64,000 nucleotides of DNA from Gaiellales bacterium (lineage in GTDB: Bacteria; Actinomycetota; Thermoleophilia; Gaiellales; JAICJC01): NCBI GenBank assembly GCA_036403155.1, contig DASWRM010000034.1:1-64000 (forward strand), in the 5' to 3' direction. Below are positions 11,905 through 51,864 of the stretch, piece by piece. Positions within the stretch are counted from its first letter, which is position 1, and each line of letters begins with the position of its first letter. The position numbers were made by a program, and so were the translations under genes. The notes under the pieces are model-generated. The model searched no databases and was not told where the DNA came from. It saw only the letters and a list, made by a program, of their open reading frames with translations.

Positions 11905-11983
11905 CCTCGGCGTGACACTTCTGTGACGGCCGATGTCGTCACAGGTTCGCAACGCCGCTGTCACTGCGCGGGGACAGGTGTCC

Positions 11984-12028
11984 GACTCCAATGATTGGGG
12001 GGCGGCGCGGTACCGGCCAACCAGGCGG
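11984..12028 (+). repeat. Dispersed intergenic motif, copy 1
   Basis: GACTCCAATGATTGGGG at 11984-12000 followed 13 bp later by CCGGCCAACCAGGCGG at 12013-12028. The first block matches, with one difference, the reverse complement of 26459-26475; the second block matches exactly 51606-51621. Both other places are also gene-free spacers. Confidence 0.55.
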
Positions 12029-12109
12029 CCGACCGGTGCCAGATGCGTCACGGACGCGTCACACCCACCGGTAGGGGCTTTGACGCCCTCACGGGGGGTG
12101 GGGCGCGGA

Positions 12110-12127
12110 TGTCACATCCATGTGACA
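12110..12127. promoter_or_regulatory. Perfect 18-bp palindrome, candidate operator
   Basis: TGTCACAT-CC-ATGTGACA is a perfect inverted repeat with 8-bp arms, about 60 bp before the start of the metallo-beta-lactamase-fold gene. It resembles binding sites of GntR- or CRP-type dimers in form. The binding protein is unknown. Confidence 0.45.
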
Positions 12128-12174
12128 CACGCTGCGGTGACGGACGCGTGACCGCCGCCGTGACACGGGCGGGG

Positions 12175-26269: not shown

Positions 26270-26445
26270 TCGGTGCTCCTTGCCCTCGGGGGCGACCATT
26301 CTGACGGCTGCGCCACGCCTGCGCTGGGCGAGCGAATAACCACCCCGCGCGCGTCAATACCGCAAAACGGGAACCCGCCCGCGGTGTCAAACGCCTGACC
26401 CCGCGCGTGTGACGCCTGTGAGACGGCTCCGGCGCACTCGGCGGG

Positions 26446-26475
26446 ATGGTTGGGCCGACCCCATTCATTGGAGTC
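26446..26475 (-). repeat. Dispersed intergenic motif, copy 2
   Basis: ATGGTTGGGCC (26446-26456) directly followed by GACCCCATTCATTGGAGTC (26457-26475). On the minus strand this reads GACTCCAATGAATGGGG then GGCCCAACCAT, i.e. the same two blocks as at 11984-12028 with a much shorter gap. Confidence 0.55.
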
Positions 26476-26547
26476 AAACCCCGCCGGGGTCGGGCGGATG
26501 CGAACCGTTGCGGAGCCGTGAGCGACTGCCACGTCCGCGTGCGTGGT

Positions 26548-45970: not shown

Positions 45971-45979
45971 AATGTGACG

Positions 45980-46012
45980 ATGGGGTCAAGCGTTCGAGGC
46001 GGCCAACCATGC
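45980..46012 (-). repeat. Dispersed intergenic motif, copy 4 (split form)
   Basis: ATGGGGTC at 45980-45987 and GGCCAACCAT at 46001-46010 are the same two blocks as at 26446-26475, separated here by 13 bp. AATGTGACG just left adds a GTGAC box. It occupies the whole promoter region of the DUF1996 gene. Confidence 0.45.
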
Positions 46013-46057
46013 AAACTGCGGGAAGACTCGTTGCCGCCTCAGCCGGCGGCCCGCATC

Positions 46058-49937: not shown

Positions 49938-50007
49938 GCCGGGATGGTATCCGGGGCACCCTGACGGGGGTCGCGACCGCCCGCGCCGGGCCGATGCTCG
50001 ATGCAGG

Positions 50008-50925
50008 ATGGGGATCCGACGACTCGGTACGGCACTGGCGGTGGTTGCGGCAGCGCTCTCGGCGGGCGCCGCGACGCCGCAGGCGGCGCCACTGGTGCGA
50101 GCGCCGGGCTGCCCGATCTTTCCCGCGGGGAACGTGTGGAACGAGGACATCTCCGGGCTGCCCGTCGCGTCCGACTCCGCGGCGCTGATCGCGACGATCG
50201 GGGCCGGCACGGGGCTGCACCCCGATTTCGGGAGCTACCGCGGCTACGGCATCCCGATCAACACGGTGCCGAGCACGCGGCCGAAGGTGCGCGTCCGGTT
50301 CGATTACCGATCCGAGTCCGACCGCGAGCGGTACCCGATTCCGAAGCGGCCGAAGATCGAGGCCGGGAGCGACCGCCACATGCTGATCGTCGAGCGCGGC
50401 GCCTGCCGGCTCTACGAGATGTGGAACGTGCGGCACACGAGCACCGGCTGGCGGGCCGGATCGGGGGCGATCTGGGACATGGAGTCGAATGCCCTGCGGC
50501 CGGACGGGTGGACGAGCGCCGACGCCGCCGGCCTGCCGATCCTCCCGGGCCTCGTCCGCTACAACGAGGTCGCGGCCGGGCTGATCGACCATGCCCTGCG
50601 GTTCACGGCGCCGCAGACGCGAACGGCGCATATCTACCCGGCCCGGCACGACGCCGGCTCCGGGGGGTCGAGCGCCCTGCCGCCCATGGGCCTGCGGGTG
50701 CGCCTCAAGGCGTCGTTCGACGTCTCGCAGCTGTCGCCGCAGGCGAGGGTGATCGCGGTCGCTCTGCAGCACTACGGCATGATCCTGGCCGACAACGGGT
50801 CGCCCTGGTACATCACCGGTGCGTCGAGCGCCAGCTTCGACGACGGCGACCTGCACACGCTGGGCCGGATCACCGGCCGCGATCTCGAGGTCGTCGACAC
50901 GAGCGGCCTCGTCAACACGCCGTAG
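50008..50925 (+). CDS. Secreted protein of a conserved actinobacterial family, function unknown
   Basis: A 305-residue exported protein with a signal peptide (LGTALAVVAAALSAGAATPQ). The mature part starts CPIFPAGNVWNEDISGLPV and includes GLHPDFGSYRGYGIPIN, RHMLIVERGACRLYEMWN, HALRFTAPQTRTAHIYPARH and LQHYGMILADNGSPWYITG. I recognise this order of motifs from hypothetical secreted proteins of soil actinobacteria; no activity is established. The His and Asp residues in the late motifs could form an active site. ATG follows CAGGATG only weakly. A -10 for the next gene starts right after its stop. Confidence 0.75.
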   Translation: MGIRRLGTALAVVAAALSAGAATPQAAPLVRAPGCPIFPAGNVWNEDISGLPVASDSAALIATIGAGTGLHPDFGSYRGYGIPINTVPSTRPKVRVRFDYRSESDRERYPIPKRPKIEAGSDRHMLIVERGACRLYEMWNVRHTSTGWRAGSGAIWDMESNALRPDGWTSADAAGLPILPGLVRYNEVAAGLIDHALRFTAPQTRTAHIYPARHDAGSGGSSALPPMGLRVRLKASFDVSQLSPQARVIAVALQHYGMILADNGSPWYITGASSASFDDGDLHTLGRITGRDLEVVDTSGLVNTP

Positions 50926-50929
50926 CCCG

Positions 50930-50942
50930 TACCATCGCCGGC
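50930..50942 (+). promoter_or_regulatory. -10 box of a leaderless start
   Basis: TACCAT at 50930-50935 is 7 nt before the ATG at 50943; the same hexamer and spacing precede the LAL regulator gene. Confidence 0.55.
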
Positions 50943-51485
50943 ATGGCGACGCTCGGGCGAGGTCGCGTGCCGCGCGCGGATATGGGGCCGGAGACGGTGA
51001 TCGAGGTGCTCGACGCGTTCCAGGCCGCCGGGGTGCGGACCTGGCTCATCGGCGGGTGGGCGATCGACGCGCTGGTCGGCGTTCAGCGCCGGCCCCACGA
51101 CGACCTCGACCTGCTGGTCACCGAGCCTGACGCCGGCCGCGCGTCAGCGCTGCTCGCCGGTCTCGGATACCCGGGCCATGTTGCGGCGCCTGGCTCGACG
51201 TACATGGTCGACGCGGCCGGCCGGCAGGTGGACGTCCACGTCATCGCCGTGCGGCCGGATGGGAGCGCCGTATACCGGATGGACAACGGCTCGCCGTGGG
51301 TGTACGCGGCGGGGAGCCTCGAGGGCCGCGGCACGGTGCTGGGCCGGCCGGTTGCGTGCGTAACACCGGAGCAGATGATGCTCGAGCACACGATCGGCTA
51401 CGCGCTCGACGCGGTCCACCAGGCGGACGTCGCCGCTCTGGCGGCGGCATTCGGGCTGAGCGTGCCGCCGTTCGACCGGGCCTGA
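50943..51485 (+). CDS. Nucleotidyltransferase, aminoglycoside/lincosamide-type
   Basis: A 180-residue protein of the nucleotidyltransferase superfamily resembling ANT(2'')/Lnu enzymes: TWLIGGWAIDALVGVQRRPH followed by DDLDLLV, the GG-W and DxD metal-binding motif (about residues 34-60), then VDVHVIAVRPDG with the third acidic residue. It lacks the extra C-terminal domain of some resistance enzymes, so its substrate may be a protein or metabolite; an antibiotic-resistance role is only a family guess. Probably leaderless and monocistronic. Confidence 0.8.
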   Translation: MATLGRGRVPRADMGPETVIEVLDAFQAAGVRTWLIGGWAIDALVGVQRRPHDDLDLLVTEPDAGRASALLAGLGYPGHVAAPGSTYMVDAAGRQVDVHVIAVRPDGSAVYRMDNGSPWVYAAGSLEGRGTVLGRPVACVTPEQMMLEHTIGYALDAVHQADVAALAAAFGLSVPPFDRA

Positions 51486-51864
51486 AGGTTCGAGTCCGGC
51501 GGCGCAACCGTCACGCGGCTGCGACCGGGCGTAACGATTCGCTCGCGCGACATCGGCACGCCACTCGTTCGACTTGGTCACCGAGGAGTGGGTGCGGCGA
51601 CAGATCCGGCCAACCAGGCGGGCCGCGGTGACATGGCTGTGCCAACACGCCAACAGGCGCTTGGTGGGACGTGGTCTCCAATGGTTCCGGCCGGCCCGAC
51701 CGCGAATCGTCACGCCGGCGTGGCAGACGTCACGCCGATGTGACCGCGAGCGGCGATGCGCCGCCCGGGTCAGATCCGGATCACCCGACCGCGGGTGCGG
51801 CTCCCACCCCGCCGGCGCCGATACCACCACAGGGGCTGCTTCTCTCTCGATTGCGGGGTCATCC
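51486..51864. other. 379-bp spacer with motif copies and GTCAC boxes
   Basis: No gene is recognised. It carries a third copy of the dispersed motif (51606-51690), and repeated GTCAC/GTGAC boxes near 51505, 51578, 51628, 51709, 51728 and 51738. An open frame spans much of it but its product is arginine-rich and unlike any protein. The DUF1800 gene starts at its right edge. Confidence 0.5.
51606..51690 (+). repeat. Dispersed intergenic motif, copy 3
   Basis: CCGGCCAACCAGGCGG at 51606-51621 is identical to 12013-12028, and GTCTCCAATGGTTCCGG at 51674-51690 is a diverged form of the CCAATGATTGGGG block. The order of the blocks is reversed compared with copy 1. Confidence 0.5.

Follow-up and report, generated by a model that had tools for sequence, protein, structure and literature searches.

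The closest described relatives of the element reported here are the REP/RAYT systems, or REPtrons (Nunvar 2010, PMC2817692; Quentin 2018, PMC6006769), in which tens of species-specific palindromes with a GT[AG]G foot are dispersed through intergenic DNA, single-copy genes for Y1 HUH transposases with the class 2 motif Y-x-x-x-N-P lie nearby between two inverted repeats, and each species variant of the repeat comes with a variant of the transposase. In published class 2 proteins the HuH motif takes the form H-(L,V,I,F,Y,M)-H, a list that does not contain W, and published REPs avoid the spacers between divergent genes (PMC3733652). In REPINs (Bertels and Rainey 2011, PMC3116915), two conserved, mutually pairing inverted arms form a doublet at a fixed spacing, 71 or 110 bp, around a less conserved spacer, and this doublet looks like the replicative unit (PMC3116915). 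TIRYT genes and their TIRtrons (Di Nocera 2013, PMC3733652) are associated with a GGGGWSAS motif in inverted repeats around the gene. Bacterial MITEs are short, non-coding, intergenic, multi-copy sequences. The REP studies compared here are chiefly on Proteobacteria, Cyanobacteria and Bacteroidetes, and within the literature consulted no paper on REP elements of Thermoleophilia was found.

The present locus belongs to a Gaiellales genome (GCA_036403155.1; 3.2 Mb in 79 contigs), and the window, i.e., the whole stretch of DNA analysed, comprises positions 1 to 64,000 of contig DASWRM010000034.1. A first-pass annotation of the window had claimed a motif common to four intergenic spacers and had suggested a global regulator site, a structured RNA element or a mobile short repeat. 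We favour the last of these and consider the motif, with a probability of about 0.68, to be part of a REP/BIME-like repeat that is mobile but non-autonomous and is moved by a cognate RAYT of the HWH type. The copies form one dispersed family with species-specific variants, intergenic placement, recent sharp-ended duplicates and adjacency to RAYT genes. The element works like a REP/RAYT system, yet it is not a canonical REP, REPIN or TIRtron; it has an unusual architecture, and its transposase has an unusual catalytic motif.

A full-unit profile built from 23 copies of the same genome gives three convincing copies in the window and no others. Copy 1 extends from arm1 to arm2 at 11976..12097 on the + strand (profile R1, 77.8 bits, E 4e-23). 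Its arm1 palindrome, GACTCCAATGATTGGGG (11984..12000, +), contains the CTCCAA that is invariant in the 23 aligned copies, and is followed by a CAACCA box, GGCCAACCA (12015..12023, +), with a box identity of 0.86 vs. 0.44-0.49 in the linkers on both sides. Two GTCAC boxes 11 bp apart (at 12047 and 12058; 12047..12062, +) come next, at offsets of the +52/+63/+74 series that recurs in other copies, and arm2, GGGGCTTTGACGCC, was placed at 12074..12087 (+) by sequence and profile alignment. Copy 1 is flanked on the left by a GTGAC/GTCAC array at 11912..11964 (+), with boxes at 11912, 11923, 11938 and 11960 whose offsets match those in L008 and L025, and on the right by a GTCAC/GTGAC array at 12111..12164 (+), with boxes at 12111, 12122, 12137, 12148 and 12160.

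Copy 2 lies on the - strand at 26375..26492 and carries an 11-base deletion in its first linker (profile R1, 58.1 bits, E 6e-17). A search allowing one mismatch recovered its arm1 palindrome, GACTCCAATGAATGGGG, at 26459..26475 (-), bearing out the claimed recurrence of the 17-mer from copy 1, for which 0.07 such matches would be expected by chance. Read from the sequence, the CAACCA box (GCCCAACCA) is at 26447..26455 (-) and a conserved tail, TTTTGCGGTATTGACG, at 26352..26367 (-), the same tail forming the right end of several other copies (L003, L009, L011, L021, L023 and L059); arm2, GGCGTTTGACACC, is at 26383..26395 (-) by sequence and profile alignment. The decayed copy 3 (51565..51684, +; profile R1, 44.9 bits, E 8e-13) had been called rearranged, which it is not, as its parts stand in the standard order (arm1, AACCA, GTCAC region, arm2) with arm1 decayed. 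The 16-mer CCGGCCAACCAGGCGG is indeed exact at both 12013 and 51606; the CAACCA box of copy 3 is again GGCCAACCA (51608..51616, +), and its arm2, GGACGTGGTCTCCAATGG, was placed at 51667..51684 (+) by profile alignment. The supposed split form at 45980-46012 was considered as a copy (45979..46042, +) and rejected, because in the profile search of the window it scores 6.3 bits with E 0.87, the noise level among many chance matches. The common motif therefore stands for three sites, which are copies of one composite element, and falls to chance level at the fourth; every one of the sites is outside called genes, as had been stated.

The 23 copies align nearly gap-free, and the unit reads arm1, spacer, CAACCA box, GTCAC boxes (two or three, at 11-bp intervals) and arm2. 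Arm1 is GGGGTTGGNCTCC overlapping the palindrome CTCCAATNATTGGGG, and the linker between arm1 and the box (CTCAACCA) is fixed in length and nearly random in sequence. Relative to the arm1 core, the GTCAC boxes are at +52, +63 and +74, and arm2 follows about 97 bp after arm1, the two arms being direct rather than inverted repeats. A conserved GTAG/GTGG foot is absent at arm1 and arm2 among the aligned copies. A GTCAC triple also precedes arm1, and GTGAC/GTCAC boxes recur beyond both arms. Some copies stand in tandem with a period of 97-98 or 153 bp; at L049 (about 1499-2019) the element forms a tandem array with a 153-154 bp period rather than one of 97 bp.

Mean pairwise identity is 0.59-0.93 in the boxes and arms and 0.37-0.49 in the linkers, where composition predicts 0.28. 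Such near-random linkers of fixed length between conserved boxes, together with a GTCAC spacing of exactly 11 bp at recurrent offsets, would also fit clusters of binding sites, in which a regulator or nucleoid organiser would read the GTCAC boxes on one face of the helix, the arms would be further palindromic sites, and selection rather than mobility would keep the boxes. However, REPINs, too, typically pair conserved arms with variable spacers of fixed length (PMC3116915), and since the placement and duplication of the units also speak against it, as described below, this explanation appears distinctly unlikely.

The palindromic character of the arms differs between this genome and its sister species. 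In the sister, the variable positions are fully complementary in 24/44 arms of the form GGNNTNNGANNCC, vs. 0/20 in the window control, in a test that rests on two inner positions only, as the form fixes the outer letters. Only 5/43 arms of this form are fully paired in the own genome, so that the palindrome of the GGNNTNNGANNCC part is weaker there than in the sister; CCAATNATTGG is the better conserved palindrome in the own genome. An arm hairpin, CCAA-nnn-TTGG, is nearly invariant, and when whole units are folded as single strands some copies do better than their shuffles (z -2.7 and -2.9), both of which would suit a structured RNA element or attenuator co-transcribed with the neighbouring genes. 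However, other copies gain nothing over their shuffles (z -0.8, 0.4 and 0.0), the orientation of the copies to the genes is inconsistent, and the consensus RNA fold of the own-genome alignment consists of the 4-bp arm hairpin alone. The covariance check proposed for an RNA structure turned up no compensatory pairs in that alignment, and an Rfam 15 search of the window at the gathering score gave 0 matches. An RNA element is thus very improbable as the explanation, and the RNA reading of the first-pass annotation is not upheld.

Genome-wide, the 17-mer with up to three mismatches has 50 matches vs. 1 for a reversed control pattern, and the E-values go down to 4e-26. A chance likeness between intergenic spacers, which holds for the fourth site only, is refuted by these numbers for 3/4 sites and is next to negligible as a general account. 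Copies were located by profile searches and in the sequence stretches around the matches. All of the mapped copies (52/52) are intergenic according to gene calls from a simple codon model, although the window is about 83% coding; the motif thus survives the refuting condition that had been set for it, a lack of intergenic excess. Several contigs of the own genome end or start within near-identical copies (the ends of L102 and L053 and the starts of L127, L128, L129 and L132), and both the own and the sister genome are draft assemblies; because contigs end inside copies, the copy numbers are approximate, and that of the own assembly is probably too low.

The copies occupy 26 co-directional, 16 convergent and 4 divergent spacers, and their orientation relative to the genes is mixed. 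The depletion of divergent spacers (4/46 copies, p about 0.002), an avoidance that the published REPs exhibit likewise, argues against a promoter role, and promoter-type placement was rejected on this depletion and the mixed orientation. The same two observations count against the binding-site clusters considered above and displace a global regulator site as the primary explanation.

The distribution of the element is narrow. The profile matches the own genome 76 times at E <= 0.01 and the sister 16 times, gives 9, 1 and 7 matches in the family's second genus and has 0 in other sampled families. The exact core pattern occurs in 2/299 genomes of the class, both of them members of this genus, and the only named genome in which it recurs is that of the MAG Thermoleophilia bacterium LS_ISSM_2_bin.20, presumed here to be the sister species (G001). 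In the sister the element takes a distinct form, with arms GGTGTTTGACACC, GGCCTCTGAGCCC or GGCCTCAGAGGCC and unchanged CAACCA and GTCAC parts, and a sister-type profile finds 66 matches there. In the second genus the matches are only weak, mostly 18-30 bits, and some of them are GGGGTCTGACCCC repeats of other Y1 genes.

Direct comparison of units shows that they have been copied to new places. In the sister, units of about 300 bp that are 87-92% identical lie in three unrelated neighbourhoods (L117, L120 and L123), the identity stopping sharply on both sides; in the own genome, the unit of L103 and two units of L105, about 230 bp long, are 91-96% identical with sharp ends, and L021 and L023 have 158 bp in common at 85% identity. 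Identities of 85-96% between units with unrelated flanks and sharp ends mean that the units were copied and dispersed, and the duplication of entire 230-300 bp units at new places is a further point against the binding-site clusters. So is the comparison of the window with the sister, since counterparts of the three window copies are absent at the matching sister flanks. The sister also has different neighbouring genes at the first two sites; at the third it has conserved the genes on either side but lacks about 0.8 kb that includes the copy. Besides copy 3, this missing stretch within 50925-51814 takes in the terminal part of a long open frame (50001-51485), and the sister matches that flank it lie 49 bp apart. 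Of the readings first suggested, the mobile short repeat is the one that these data support: near-identical dispersed units with sharp ends and unrelated flanks, species-specific variants, adjacent RAYT-type genes, and orthologous sister flanks without copies. The unit ends were located by alignment, and at those examined neither a clear terminal inverted repeat nor a target duplication was recognised.

A separate duplication joins L015 (1493-1720) and L052 (1355-1583), where a copy and about 15-25 codons of the next gene start are duplicated; the gene start reads like rsmI (MADTGALVVCPTPIGNLGD), and the gene at the second place is a fragment. Either transposition that carried flanking DNA along or recombination may have produced it.

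The own genome has five Y1_Tnp genes. Two of them, C30:24454 and C37:120658, each adjoin a direct-oriented pair, with about 90 bp between the gene start and an arm (profile E 7e-24 and 4e-16), and have copies on the upstream side only and no matching inverted repeat opposite. These two HWH RAYTs span C30:24415-24942 and C37:120616-121170. The chance that at least 2/5 Y1 genes would lie so near copies is low (p about 0.004), a figure to be read with the paralogy of the two genes, by which their adjacency to copies may be one event. Upstream of the sister gene of the same type, C46:2953, lies a sister-type copy (E 1.5e-5 genome-wide). For the third such gene of the own genome, C30:2525, two upstream GGGCTCAGAGCCC palindromes score weakly (E 3e-4 and 0.008 in 63 kb) against the sister-type profile. 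The downstream neighbour sequence is common to C30:2525 and C46:2953 (L046/L062), so this RAYT locus appears to be vertically inherited in the genus. Degenerate arm-like tandem repeats such as GGGGGTTGACGCNATNGGGTG were also seen upstream of a RAYT arm pair in L044 (about 1400-1500).

All four proteins carry an HWH motif together with Y-x-x-x-N-P (YIPLNP/YLPLNP), whereas the best outside matches with a readable motif have HYH, HFH or HVH. They form one clade with 100/100 support in a tree of Y1 proteins, from whose set of 17 proteins L100 and L101 were left out; at 40-41% identity these two are not of the HWH clade. In a six-frame search of the 299 class genomes the HWH proteins are 65-73% identical to P0002, and the others, among the matches listed, are at most 50% identical. 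It was this search that settled the RAYT kinship, as a search of named genomes with short exact peptides had returned no relatives. The HWH proteins score above the cut-off of Pfam Y1_Tnp and below the curated 80-bit cut-off of NCBIfam REP_Tyr_transpos (NF047646; 63.8 and 65.7 bits, E about 1e-17), and a PDB sequence search with the RAYT gave nothing at E up to 1.

These proteins are not the only candidates, as several further Y1 transposases are present in the own genome, and the units could be mobile through another agent, i.e., another transposase acting in trans, or recombination or gene conversion between copies; recombination could also explain the copy and gene start common to L015 and L052. 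However, two RAYTs of the HWH clade adjoin full copies and the other two adjoin arm-type matches, while the genus's other Y1 genes have different palindromes without a profile match. Furthermore, element and HWH clade are both restricted to this genus among the 299 class genomes, save for the weak profile matches in the second genus, a co-restriction that rests on one genus and hence is one evolutionary observation. A different mover is accordingly only a slim prospect, and the HWH RAYT clade remains the probable mover of the units.

Measured against the described systems, the element resembles REP/RAYT systems in its tens of dispersed, intergenic, species-specific palindromes, in the nearby single-copy class 2 transposase genes and in the joint variation of repeat and transposase between species. 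It differs from them in that the foot is missing, the RAYT lacks the two inverted flanking repeats, the arms are direct and about 97 bp apart with conserved CAACCA and GTCAC boxes inside, and the HuH motif is HWH, with a residue outside the published list. A doublet of conserved arms at fixed spacing around a less conserved spacer is REPIN-like, but the arms of a REPIN are inverted so that one pairs with the other, whereas those of the element are direct and their spacer holds conserved boxes. The arm sequence is close to the GGGGWSAS motif of TIRtrons, and arm2-like GGGGTCTGACCCC palindromes are inverted around other Y1 genes of the family (G002 C8), but the element-adjacent HWH RAYTs have no matching inverted repeat opposite. 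Like bacterial MITEs, the element is short, non-coding, intergenic and multi-copy and has been duplicated with sharp ends, although the terminal inverted repeat and target duplication of MITEs were not recognised at the examined ends. Because the GT[AG]G foot, the inverted RAYT-flanking copies and the REPIN-type inverted arms all fail, the element is not filed under a canonical class.

By analogy with TnpA-REP (PMC6006769; PMC8266576), we infer that the HWH-clade transposase would recognise an arm folded into a hairpin in single-stranded DNA, cut beside this arm with its tyrosine and join the arm to DNA at another place. The limits of the mobile unit would be set by its two arms, and units would be copied or moved into intergenic DNA, where older copies would then decay. 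The GTCAC boxes are putative binding sites of a host protein or of the transposase; that they are conserved on one face of the helix points to binding in the double-stranded state, and protein binding to the phased boxes as part of the element is possible. A more speculative and on balance unlikely version is that the HWH RAYTs are a genus-specific subclass acting on a composite unit of hairpin arms and 11-bp-phased GTCAC boxes read as double-stranded DNA, where a second protein bound to the boxes would gate transposition or else a domesticated chromosomal role. As repeat and transposase both differ between the sister species, the system offers a natural test of REP/transposase coevolution and of the role of the spacer boxes.

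Other Y1 genes of the family have palindromes of their own (L045, L047, L060, L061, L093, L096, L097, L098, L100 and L101). Long terminal inverted repeats flank some of these genes (L093 and L096) and not the two clear HWH RAYT loci; GGGGTCAGACCCCAATT is inverted around the gene of L096, and AAAAAGGTGCCAGGCTCCTTTTT precedes that of L045. These other genes look like the published TIRYT type.
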